Positions 38,453 through 42,789 of a stretch of 42,992 bases of DNA are shown here, one piece after another (the stretch's first letter is position 1; every line of letters begins with the position of its first letter). Source of the stretch: an uncultured Clostridia bacterium (GTDB lineage Bacteria > Bacillota > Clostridia > Christensenellales > Borkfalkiaceae); contig CALVWV010000008.1 of the NCBI GenBank assembly GCA_944368065.1, positions 1 to 42,992 of the forward strand, read 5' to 3'. Position numbers and translations under genes: made by a program. The notes beneath the pieces were generated by a model. It saw nothing but the letters and a program-made list of their open reading frames with translations. It was not told the DNA's origin and searched no databases.

Positions 38453-40156
38453 TTATCTGTAAACTGCGGCGTCTAGGTTTTCTTTTATAGACGACTTTTT
38501 GCTGAAATAGATATAATTGTTGCATTTTTCAAGGTTATCCCACACCTCGCCTATGCCGAACACGTTAAGCCTCTGCTTTGCATTAACGTCGAAGGGTACG
38601 GTGTTGCGTTTTACCGCGCCGATAAGGTCGGCTTCTATAAAGATGGCTGCAAACGGTATGAACAGCGCCAGCCCTGAAAGCACGGCAAATGCAATGGCAA
38701 CTCCCGTAACGAACCCGCCTGCGGCAACGATTATGCCCGTAGCCAGAGATAGCGCATTTATGACGCATAAAATTATCATGGCGGCAAACGTGCATTTCAT
38801 TTTGCGGAAGCTCGTCTGATTTGAATAACGTTTATACGCAATCAGCAGGAAGCAAACTATAAGCAGAATAACCGTCACAATCGCGGGCAAAAAGAGCGCA
38901 TAATCTTCTGCTCCCGCCGTGCCGTTTTTTATAGGCCTTGAAACTTCCTGTATTATGTAAACGAGGGAATATGCAAGCGTTGCTGCGGCAAACGCGGCTG
39001 TTATTATAAGGGCGGAAAGGCGCAGCGGGTGTTCGCTGTTGCATTCTTTCGCCGCCTGTACGTTCTTTTTCGTGATAAAACTTTCGGGCAGGGTCTGCCA
39101 GTTGCATGCGTTTTTTATGCGCCCCGGATTAATATGAACGAGTTTGTCGCTGTAAGAGAATTTTTTAAACGCCATTACCGTCAGAATGAAAAGGGAGAAG
39201 GCGAAGAACAGTACGCCGAATATAAGCGGGCAAAGTATTGCCGCACCGCTGTTCATTAATCCGAAGGTGGAACTTTTCAGCCAGCCGTCAGCGGCACAGG
39301 CAGCAATCATTCCTCCGAGTATGGCGACGATGTCTGCAAGCGTCAGCAAAGTGTGCATTTTTACTTCGCCGAACGCGACATACGCAACTTCCCGCCTGTG
39401 TTCGACTATATTCATAACGACGTGGGCAAGCCCCGCGAGGAATGCAAGTATTCCGAAAACGAGTATGGTTATGGGGTATCCCGTACCTTCCATTTCCACG
39501 CGCATTGTGCCGTATCCGGGTATATTAATCGAACCGAGGCTGCCTTTGCCGCTTGCCGCAATCCATTCGTAACCCGTCATGCTTGTCTGCCAGAGGAATG
39601 TGAGCGCGCCCGCTGCAAGCGTTGTAATGCTTATTATGCCGAATATAAGCGCAAATACGGCGCACGCCCAGCGGCATATGGCCTTCAATGCCGCGTATGC
39701 TCCCGGACTGAGTATTATGGTTATCGGCGGTTGCTTTTTCTTCTTTTCAAGCGCGGCGTATGCGCTCTGCAATCCTTCGGGTATGCCGTCTGAAGCGGGC
39801 TTTCCGGCGGTCAGCGGGCGCTCATCAGGCAACTCTTCCGCCTGTGCGGGCTTTGGTTGCGGCATAGGAGCAGGTCGCGGCTCTTCGTTTTCTGCCGCGT
39901 GAGGTTGCGGCATAGGGGCGGGTCGCGGCTCAGCTGTTTTTTCTGCTTTTTCAGAATCAGCGTTTATGGCGGCAATATCTTTTATCGGCTTGCCGACAAC
40001 GCCCGCTTTCATGCCGCAGGCGGGGCAGAAGTATCCTTTGAATTTCGTTCCGCATCTTGCGCAGAACTGTTCGCGTATTTGCGCGTTATCGTTCGGCGTG
40101 CCGCAATTCGGGCAGAAAATGCCTTCGAATTCCGTTCCGCATTTAGTGCATTTCAT
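38453..40156 (-). CDS. zinc-ribbon multi-spanning membrane protein, unknown
   Basis: A 567-residue protein. Two N-terminal zinc ribbons (CTKC with CPNC at about 3-18, and CARC with CPAC at about 32-48) precede a Pro/Ala/Glu-rich linker with an exact duplication of EPRPAPMPQP, then about nine to ten hydrophobic helices (from about 158 to 530) with a 40-residue soluble loop near 340-375. The C-terminus is cytoplasmic. The domain order, zinc ribbon plus proline-rich linker plus membrane bundle, is common among Clostridia proteins of unknown function. GGGGG precedes the ATG. It is transcribed alone from its own promoter, divergent from the ABC ATPase gene. Confidence 0.82.
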   Translation of the reverse strand: MKCTKCGTEFEGIFCPNCGTPNDNAQIREQFCARCGTKFKGYFCPACGMKAGVVGKPIKDIAAINADSEKAEKTAEPRPAPMPQPHAAENEEPRPAPMPQPKPAQAEELPDERPLTAGKPASDGIPEGLQSAYAALEKKKKQPPITIILSPGAYAALKAICRWACAVFALIFGIISITTLAAGALTFLWQTSMTGYEWIAASGKGSLGSINIPGYGTMRVEMEGTGYPITILVFGILAFLAGLAHVVMNIVEHRREVAYVAFGEVKMHTLLTLADIVAILGGMIAACAADGWLKSSTFGLMNSGAAILCPLIFGVLFFAFSLFILTVMAFKKFSYSDKLVHINPGRIKNACNWQTLPESFITKKNVQAAKECNSEHPLRLSALIITAAFAAATLAYSLVYIIQEVSRPIKNGTAGAEDYALFLPAIVTVILLIVCFLLIAYKRYSNQTSFRKMKCTFAAMIILCVINALSLATGIIVAAGGFVTGVAIAFAVLSGLALFIPFAAIFIEADLIGAVKRNTVPFDVNAKQRLNVFGIGEVWDNLEKCNNYIYFSKKSSIKENLDAAVYR

Positions 40157-40368: not shown

Positions 40369-40397
40369 TTGAAATAACACTCGGTTTATGCTATACT
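40369..40397 (+). promoter_or_regulatory. sigma-A promoter of the ABC ATPase gene
   Basis: TTGAAA (40369-40374), a 17-bp spacer and TATACT (40392-40397). The leader is about 60 nt and ends with CGGAG before the ATG. Confidence 0.85.
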
Positions 40398-40463: not shown

Positions 40464-41684
40464 ATGGCAAATCTCAAGCTTGCCGGGGTAAGCAAAATAT
40501 ATCCCTCGGGCAAAATGGCGCTGTTCAACGTAAGTTTTTCTTCGTCCGACAGCGAATTCATAGCCGTTACGGGCGGTTCGCTCTGCGGCAAATCAACCCT
40601 TCTGCGCATAATCGCGGGGCTTGAAGAAGCTACTGCGGGCGACATATACATCGGCGACAAACTCATGAACGAAGCCGACCCCAAAGACCGCGACGTGGCT
40701 ATGGTATTCGGTTCAAACACGCTCTATCCTTCTTTGAACGTTGCGGATAACATGGCTTACGGCCTTAAAATGCGCAATGTGCCCCAGGCGGTTATTCAGC
40801 AGCGCGTAAAAGTCGTTGCTGAAATGCTCGGCCTTACCGAGGTGCTTTACCGCAAGCCTAAGGCGCTCACCGCAGCCCAGCGTCTTCTTACTACGTACGG
40901 CAGGGCGATAGTCAGGGAGCCCAAACTCTATCTTTTCGACGACCCTCTCGCGGGTCTCGACGAAAAGCTCAGGGCGGATATGCGCGGCGTGCTCGTAAAT
41001 CTTCAGGCGCGCGTGAAGGGCACGTTCATTTACGCCACCAAAAACATTTCCGAGGCTATGAGCATGGCGACGAGGATTGTCATACTCAAAGACGGTTTTG
41101 TCCAGCAGGTGGATACCCCCCGCAACCTTTACGACTACCCCGCCAACGCGTACGTGGGTTTCTTTGTGGGCAGCCCCACTATGAACCTTGTTCAGCACGC
41201 AAAAGCGGTGAGGGAAGAGGACGGCGTTTACTGCGTGTTTGACGACAAAAAGCTTAAGCTCCCCGAAAATATAATCGCGCGCTGGACGAATATAGAAGAG
41301 TATATCGGCGCGGATAAAGAGGTGACTTTAGGCATCCGTCCAGAGGACATAAAAGCGGACGCGGAAGGACCTTTGAGCGGCGAAGTGTGCGGTGCGGACA
41401 ACTCCGACGGCGTCAGCCTTGCGGAAATAGACGTTTCCAAGAACGTAAGCCTTACGGTATTCCTTGAAAAGCCTGTAAGGGGCGAAAAGCATACGCTTGC
41501 GCCCGACCTTACCCGCCTTTACGTGTTCGACGGCGAAACGCAGCTTACGCTTCTTTCGCGCGACGAAGGTTACGTTGCGGACGAAAAGAATGCCGAGGCA
41601 GACTTTGTGCCTTTGACCAAGGGCGAGACGGAGGAGCGCATAAAGCAGTTTGCTCCGCCCAAGCAGGATAAAAAGAGGAAGTAA
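40464..41684 (+). CDS. MalK/MsmX-like ABC ATPase with degenerate catalytic motifs
   Basis: A 406-residue homologue of the carbohydrate-importer ATPases MalK/UgpC/MsmX, with an ABC domain (about 4-235) and C-terminal TOBE-like beta domain (about 285-370) plus a charged tail. Walker A is intact (GGSLCGKST, 37-45). The other loops are altered: the Q-loop Gln is Gly (VFGSN, 83); the signature LSGGQ is LTAAQ (135-139); the Walker B Glu is Asp (LYLFDD, 160); the H-loop His is Lys (ATKN, 193). Each is a residue needed for normal ATP hydrolysis or dimer closure. It may bind ATP without normal turnover. No permease or solute-binding gene is adjacent. Its role is unknown. Confidence 0.85.
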   Translation: MANLKLAGVSKIYPSGKMALFNVSFSSSDSEFIAVTGGSLCGKSTLLRIIAGLEEATAGDIYIGDKLMNEADPKDRDVAMVFGSNTLYPSLNVADNMAYGLKMRNVPQAVIQQRVKVVAEMLGLTEVLYRKPKALTAAQRLLTTYGRAIVREPKLYLFDDPLAGLDEKLRADMRGVLVNLQARVKGTFIYATKNISEAMSMATRIVILKDGFVQQVDTPRNLYDYPANAYVGFFVGSPTMNLVQHAKAVREEDGVYCVFDDKKLKLPENIIARWTNIEEYIGADKEVTLGIRPEDIKADAEGPLSGEVCGADNSDGVSLAEIDVSKNVSLTVFLEKPVRGEKHTLAPDLTRLYVFDGETQLTLLSRDEGYVADEKNAEADFVPLTKGETEERIKQFAPPKQDKKRK

Positions 41685-41722: not shown

Positions 41723-41751
41723 ATGCCGCGAAGCCTTTCGCGGCATTTCAA
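41723..41751 (+). terminator. terminator after the ABC ATPase gene
   Basis: ATGCCGCGAA-gcct-TTCGCGGCAT, a perfect 10-bp stem, followed by TTCAATTTAAATTTTTTT. Confidence 0.8.
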
Positions 41752-41794
41752 TTTAAATTTTTTTGTTTAATAAGTCCGCATGCGGGCGATAATA

Positions 41795-41800
41795 TATAAT
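41795..41800 (+). promoter_or_regulatory. -10 box immediately upstream of the exporter gene
   Basis: TATAAT (41795-41800) is followed by six bases and the ATG at 41807. The -35 region (about 41772-41777, AAGTCC) is a poor match, so this one is weaker than the ispE, trmB and queH cases. Confidence 0.45.
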
Positions 41801-41806
41801 AGGTTT

Positions 41807-42676
41807 ATGTGGGATACTGTTTTAGACGCGTTTTTGGATACGCTTAAAATATTCCCGTTTATCTTTGTAATCTACGTTCTGATAGAACTGCTTGAGCACA
41901 AGACTTCTTTCACTAAGGACCACCAGAGGTTACAGGGTAATTTTGCCCCGCTGATAGGCGCGGCTACGGGAATCATACCTCAGTGCGGCTTTTCGGTAAT
42001 GGCGGCGAAGCTGTACGACAAAGGGCTTATACGCACCGGCACGCTTCTGGCGGTGTTTCTGGCTACCTCGGACGAGGCGCTCATAATACTTCTTTCCCAG
42101 GGCTCAAAAGCGGGCGTGATAGTGCCGCTCATAGCGATAAAGCTCGTGGTTGCCGCAGCGGTAGGTTATGGCGCAAACTTTATTCTTCCCGACGAAAAGC
42201 TTTCCATCTCGCCGCTCTCTTCCGAGGACATACATTGTTTTTCCTGCGGGCGCGAGCACGACGGCAAGACGGAACTTAAAGTTTACTTTGTCGACCCGCT
42301 CATTCACGCGCTTAAAATTGCACTTTATCTTCTCATAATAAACATAGTGCTCGGCTGCATAATAGCCGCCGTCGGCGAAGAGCAGATTTCCTCGCTGATT
42401 ATCGGCGGACCGTACCTTCAGCCCTTTATTACCGCGGCGATAGGTCTTATACCCAACTGCGCGGCGAGCGTTATTATAACCGATACGTATATAAACAATT
42501 TAATGACGTTCGGCAGCTGCGTTGCGGGACTGTGTTCTAACGCGGGATTGGGATTTGTGGTGCTTTTGAAAAACAGTAAAAAATTGAAGCGCAACATAGC
42601 GCTTATCGCCGCGACATATCTCATAAGCGCGGTTGTCGGCATAGTCATAAACAGCATCGCCATTCTCGCAGCTTAA
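41807..42676 (+). CDS. putative 10TM metal/arsenic exporter (ArsP_2-like permease)
   Basis: A 289-residue membrane protein built from two similar halves. GATGIIPQCGFSVMAAKLYDKGLI with GTLLAVFLATSDEALIILL in the first half is echoed by AAIGLIPNCAASVIITDTYI with GSCVAGLCSNAGLGFVVLL in the second. This inverted or duplicated pattern matches the putative 10TM heavy-metal exporter family (PF11449, ArsP_2). A short soluble loop between the halves contains CFSCGREHDG, a possible metal site. The ATG at 41807 lies 6 bases after TATAAT, with no Shine-Dalgarno. The frame is open nine codons further upstream through the promoter. Substrate is unknown. Confidence 0.82.
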   Translation: MWDTVLDAFLDTLKIFPFIFVIYVLIELLEHKTSFTKDHQRLQGNFAPLIGAATGIIPQCGFSVMAAKLYDKGLIRTGTLLAVFLATSDEALIILLSQGSKAGVIVPLIAIKLVVAAAVGYGANFILPDEKLSISPLSSEDIHCFSCGREHDGKTELKVYFVDPLIHALKIALYLLIINIVLGCIIAAVGEEQISSLIIGGPYLQPFITAAIGLIPNCAASVIITDTYINNLMTFGSCVAGLCSNAGLGFVVLLKNSKKLKRNIALIAATYLISAVVGIVINSIAILAA

Positions 42677-42759: not shown

Positions 42760-42789
42760 TTGACACGCGGCAAAATTTTTTGCTATAAT
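42760..42789 (+). promoter_or_regulatory. sigma-A promoter of rpsU
   Basis: TTGACA (42760-42765), an 18-bp spacer and TATAAT (42784-42789). Confidence 0.88.

Follow-up and report, generated by a model that had tools for sequence, protein, structure and literature searches.

What is an ABC ATPase kept for when residues of most of its catalytic loops are altered? The question is raised by a gene that we have analyzed in an uncultured Clostridia bacterium, within a stretch of 42,992 nucleotides (called here the window) that represents contig C8 of a 1.70-Mb genome, 83% complete. The gene, an open frame with an ATG start at 40464..41684 on the forward strand (as are all its motifs), codes for a MsmX/MalK-type pseudo-ATPase of 406 aa. 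Walker A (GGSLCGKST, residues 37–45, 40572..40598) is kept. Position 83 of the Q-loop (40710..40712) is Gly instead of Gln, the signature (residues 135–139, 40866..40880) reads LTAAQ instead of LSGGQ, Walker B (LYLFDD, residues 155–160, 40926..40943) keeps Asp159 and has Asp in place of Glu160, and in the H-loop (T192-K193) the His of position 193 (41040..41042) is replaced by Lys. These changes, listed in the initial annotation, were read directly from the residues, and the fold was confirmed by Pfam (ABC_tran, E 1.3e-18; OB_MalK, E 1e-7) and by an AF2 model (pLDDT 92.1, pTM 0.89).

The signals for expression announced for this gene were also recognized. There is a GGAG-type ribosome site immediately 5' of the ORF, and further upstream a promoter-like site, TTGAAA-17-TATACT (40369..40397, forward strand), with TG before the second hexamer, recognized by its match to the consensus only (10 of 12 positions); the region has 11 such promoter-like sites vs 3.0 in shuffles. 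On the 3' side a terminator-like hairpin of 10 pairs (41723..41746) is located between this gene and the following one, in a region with 4 such hairpins vs 3.8 in shuffles. The following gene (41780..42676, forward strand) codes for a permease of the ArsP_2 / NF037962 'arsenic efflux protein' family, a putative metal exporter, whose true start may be Met10 at 41807 because its relatives align from about residue 9. The middle of this permease contains a Cys-x2-Cys stretch (HCFSCGREHD), a possible metal or thiol site. Also in the window, a 567-aa double zinc ribbon protein (38453–40156, reverse strand) is encoded between QueH and the pseudo-ATPase, and a perfect sigma-70 consensus (TTGACA-18-TATAAT, 12/12) appears at 42760–42789 on the forward strand, near the contig end and directed off the window.

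Family-wide loss of catalytic residues under purifying selection

Orthologues (E < 1e-100) were detected in 55 of the 61 genomes of the same genus, the window's own included, the others being 44–77% identical to it, and none of the 55 matches has an internal stop. Among the six genomes without a match, four do not have the permease either; in the other two it lies where a contig ends, accompanied in one case by a C-terminal fragment of the ATPase. The alignment used here has 54 rows, two duplicates (L014 and L015) and a partial copy (L066) being excluded, as was the duplicate L004 from the canonical rows; ABC_tran was found in 54/54 members and OB_MalK in 53/54. Gly37, Gly42 and Lys43 of Walker A and Asp159 are invariant (54/54), and the D-loop Asp166 is kept in 52. 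The four substitutions had been expected to be conserved in relatives, and for the signature and the H-loop this is the case over the whole family: position 137 is never Gly (A in 38 rows, S in 10, T in 6), position 138 is Gly in 3/54, and position 193 is K in 50, R in 3 and P in one. The other two did not follow the expectation, as position 83 varies widely (R25, Q13, K7, G5 and others) and position 160 is divided between Glu (29) and Asp (25). Seven further genomes beyond these rows, one of them with a partial copy, have likewise lost the signature and the H-loop, and His193 and Gly137 are absent in all 61 genomes of the genus inspected (the 55 with an orthologue and 6 further ones).

We have compared these proteins with 63 canonical rows, in which 107 positions are at least 97% invariant. 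At twenty of these positions, 90% or more of 35 same-genus rows have another residue, and five of the twenty fall among eight positions that we named for this comparison in the Q-loop, the signature, the Walker B Glu and the H-loop (Fisher p 0.0055), the other 15 lying outside. When 15 other degenerate rows were considered as well, only four positions turned out to be substituted in 90% or more of the rows of each set, namely Tyr85, which adjoins the Q-loop, Gly137 and Gly138 of the signature, and His193 of the H-loop. The same three Walker A residues and Asp159 are kept in 50/50 degenerate rows of the tree set, and the conservation of Tyr13 in the A-loop reaches 90% or more both in canonical and in same-genus rows.

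The dN/dS ratio (Nei-Gojobori) was 0.065–0.22 among the 45 closest degenerate pairs, except for one that was saturated, and 0.05–0.21 for the permease in those 45 pairs, these being rough values because many dS were larger than 1. The canonical ATPases gave 0.02–0.22 (60 pairs). Catalytic residues have been lost, in short, across a conserved family that is under purifying selection. A recent decay of a single copy, for which same-genus relatives with normal motifs would be expected, is refuted by the family-wide loss, the open frames and the dN/dS values. The description of the gene as a retained pseudo-ATPase stands on the same observations, the absence of hydrolysis being a prediction.

Canonical and degenerate copies at one locus in sister genera

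We have examined a family sample of 151 genomes from 18 genera. Canonical copies, with LSGGQ and VTHDQ motifs, are located 5' of this permease in g5, g6, g7, g9, g10, g11, g15 and g17 (one genome or more per genus). Outside the window's genus, degenerate copies appeared in 16 genomes (four of g5, eight of g9, three of g10, one of these partial, and one of g11), which is no census because only part of the family matches were fetched. In g10 canonical and degenerate copies alike sit between the OTC gene and the permease. Since sister genera have a canonical MsmX-type copy at this place, and in view of the link with importers described below, we take the window gene to be the very ATPase that sugar importers formerly shared, altered in place. 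The regulator or partner of a normal MsmX that the initial annotation had suggested is not supported in that form, because the gene fills the place of the canonical copy.

The degenerate ATPases of g5 (L254–L257) are only about 270–315 aa long, with motifs of the type FGLERSGKST / VYATENIR and dN/dS of 0.10–0.17 in three pairs. The member scanned (L255) matches ABC_tran and has no match to OB_MalK.

The number of independent losses lies between one and about ten. The ABC tree, built without the motif columns, needs 2 changes, the permease tree 10. In the ABC tree (35 of the 54 same-genus rows, the partial L241 left out), which is unsafe because of its long branches, a single clade of all degenerate copies was not rejected (p 0.36), nor was g11 as one clade (p 0.19), g9 plus L195 being borderline (p 0.035). 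The permease tree, which keeps the genera largely together, favours several changes in place; the ABC tree demands no more than two.

Importers were counted with a MalG-like query (its top NCBIfam model was MalG, with 141 bits, below the cut-off, and its top PDB match was MalG), leaving out G069, whose ATPase was only later read as canonical, and adding G126 and G070. Within g5, g9, g10 and g11, the degenerate genomes have 0–2 MalG-type permeases (16 genomes, median 0) and the canonical ones 1–31 (25 genomes, median 8), the two kinds of genome being fully separated inside each of the four genera. The PF00528 counts (16 degenerate vs 23 canonical genomes) likewise set the two apart in every genus, by a small margin in g9 (13 vs 14) and g11 (8 vs 11). 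When eight independent pairs were taken from the permease tree, with 'few' defined as three MalG matches or less, 5–6 agreed, none disagreed and 2–3 were equal (p 0.03–0.06). In the window's own genus, eight degenerate genomes were counted, with 0–4 matches. Over the 24 degenerate genomes counted, 11 had no MalG-type permease (E ≤ 1e-10) and still kept the ATPase gene; the six genomes of the genus that have no full ATPase match are outside these 24 and had 0–5. As a general rule the link was rejected: few importers do not always mean degeneration, because g4, g7, g8, g14, g15 and g18 each have at least one genome that keeps a canonical copy with 0–1 MalG matches. Ten canonical genomes with at least eight MalG matches have only 1–3 MalK-type ATPases (E ≤ 1e-45), four of them a single one, an indirect hint from gene counts that canonical copies may energise several importers devoid of an ATPase of their own.

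Degenerate sites in ABC exporters and MsmX-type ATPases are both well known already. Among the open-licence PMC papers listed, none described dead MsmX-type ATPases that form a conserved family. The present case is that of a bacterial pseudo-enzyme derived from a motor that several transporters shared, sister species having either its canonical or its dead version at the same locus, and in four genera it links catalytic loss to a scarcity of the sugar-importer clients of the motor. Such natural before and after pairs could serve to ask which functions of an ABC ATPase need hydrolysis.

Relatives of the protein and its possible present function

The top solved structures found by Foldseek for the window protein were Clo1313_2554 of C. 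thermocellum (7x0q) and MsmX of B. subtilis (6yir), described as standalone sugar-importer ATPases (PMC9601137, PMC7658222). The likeness to the MsmX/MsmK-type multitask ATPases of CUT1 importers extends over nearly the whole chain (TMq 0.76–0.80, 39–42% identity) and includes the MalK OB domain and a gene placed outside any importer operon. From the four MsmX-type residues named in a passage of PMC7658222 (D77, R104, E110 and K154), the window protein has D77, R104 and K154, but V110; canonical copies of the locus vary there too (E110 in 16/45), and the same-genus rows keep R104 in 35/35, D77 in 31/35 and K154 in 26/35. On the other hand, the window protein has none of the Q-loop Gln, LSGGQ, Walker B Glu and H-loop His expected of the type, and its family, without signature and H-loop and with variable Q-loop and Walker B, adjoins an ArsP_2-type permease and is kept where MalG-type permeases are few. 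The top NCBIfam model was UgpC, with 313.6 bits, below the cut-off of 432 that a canonical sister-genus copy (L208) clears with 467. A scan of genome contigs kept 80 loci, all looking like generic MalK relatives (31–47% identity).

Catalytic residues are also lost, and the protein retained, in heterodimeric ABC exporters such as TM287/288, TAP or BmrCD, where one nucleotide-binding site is devoid of them according to PMC7756269, PMC7544095 and other papers. There, however, one of two sites is degenerate in a dedicated transporter with a catalytic partner, whereas the window protein is an ATPase of the importer type that stands alone, no partner being known. For a signalling role, there is also a parallel among proteins of the MalK fold. 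Besides its part in transport, E. coli MalK binds and regulates MalT, although it keeps its catalytic motifs, unlike the window protein.

The permease follows the ATPase immediately on the 3' side in all same-genus genomes with an orthologue but one (54/55), in which the contig is cut at this place, and it lies at no more than 2 kb in all 16 degenerate copies outside the genus, an adjacency that is partly built in for seven of the 16 because they were fetched via the permease (the other nine came from the ATPase search). Inside the family, 13 of 40 permease-centred stretches have a permease without such an ATPase beside it, as do the g7 genomes G197, G158 and G179, and outside the family none of 21 permease loci has a MalK-type neighbour within 1.5 kb. 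We have also correlated the distances over 44 loci with ABC, permease, QueH and OTC sequences. The distances of the ABC protein follow those of OTC best (partial correlation 0.59, vs 0.24 for the permease), and the correlations as a whole are too weak to base an argument on.

By the mechanism of ABC ATPases, losses like these should abolish hydrolysis and closure of the sandwich of two ATPases and leave nucleotide binding possible. Most likely, then, the window protein would bind ATP without turning it over. Its preservation by selection beside a putative metal-exporter gene suggests a protein that was given a new job. In the reading that we prefer, to which we would give an even chance as a whole, the gene descends from an MsmX-type ATPase that CUT1 sugar importers had in common. 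In the window's genus and in part of the species sampled in four sister genera, it has lost residues for hydrolysis and for closure of the sandwich (the Gly-Gly of the signature, the H-loop His and often the Q-loop Gln), keeping the fold and residues for ATP binding (Walker A and the Mg-binding Asp159). The change took place beside the putative ArsP_2-family exporter, in lineages with few sugar importers that would depend on it, and the protein would now have a job tied to the permease. This last step is the least certain; the linkage of the two genes suggests, for example, a docking or gating subunit that depends on ATP and senses the energy charge. The hairpin between the genes, the permeases without ATPase inside and outside the family and the weak distance correlation all speak against the tie. 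That an importer-type ATPase was repeatedly converted in place into a non-hydrolysing, ATP-bound subunit gating a non-ABC exporter of the ArsP_2 family, with export following the energy charge, is a tentative proposal that we hold to be possible rather than probable; if the tie to the permease were true it would be a new way of regulating such an exporter.

The same hairpin, the frequent permeases without ATPase in the family and distances that follow OTC best would also fit a scaffold or regulator with no relation to the permease, in which the MalK-like fold, with OB_MalK in 53/54 members and E. coli MalK as a precedent, binds some regulator or a different partner in the cytosol and the gene neighbourhood is simply an inheritance. 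The g5 member with ABC_tran only and the adjacency in 16/16 copies outside the genus (with the fetching bias mentioned for seven) weigh against such a role, which we find rather doubtful. A role in sugar import is disfavoured by the 11 of 24 degenerate genomes that have no MalG match. These genomes count as well against a non-hydrolysing partner or dominant-negative regulator that would pair with canonical MalK paralogues and tune their importers, as do the shortened g5 protein and the altered signature that would remain opposite one of the two sites of a mixed dimer. The idea draws on the kept D-loop Asp166, on the conservation of R104, D77 and K154, and on two canonical MalK-type paralogues in the window genome (contig C48), one beside a BPD_transp_1 gene, and we judge it unlikely.

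A still working, slow ATPase and transport motor, using Lys for His and Ala for Gly, would account for the Walker B Glu and Gln83 that persist in 29 and 13 of the 54 orthologues, and exporters whose degenerate site has no Walker B Glu still transport, as reported in PMC7544095. Against it, all 61 same-genus copies inspected are devoid of the first Gly of the signature and of the His of the H-loop, and several MalK paralogues of the genus adjoin importer genes of their own, namely BPD_transp_1 genes (L067, L070, L071, L003) or a solute-binding protein (L067 and L079), no Pfam match being obtained for the neighbours scanned beside L068 and L075; we consider such a motor quite improbable. Longer branches in the degenerate than in the canonical copies and the few importer clients are what a slow decay without function would produce, and this explanation, already contradicted by 55 same-genus matches free of stops, by the dN/dS values and by Lys or Arg at position 193 in 53/54, retains hardly any credibility.

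Two minor observations concern these paralogues and the permease. Six of the canonical MalK paralogues (L067, L068, L069, L070, L076 and L078) are about 620–670 aa long, and for L068, the only one scanned, Pfam gave no match beyond residue 298. In g9 (L202–L207, L222–L224, L228, L231–L238) two kinds of permease coexist within one genus, one of about 300 aa with 53% identity to that of the window (L204 and L237), and another of about 314–394 aa with 33–42% identity in the remaining loci (L234, cut by the contig end, was compared over part of its length only).
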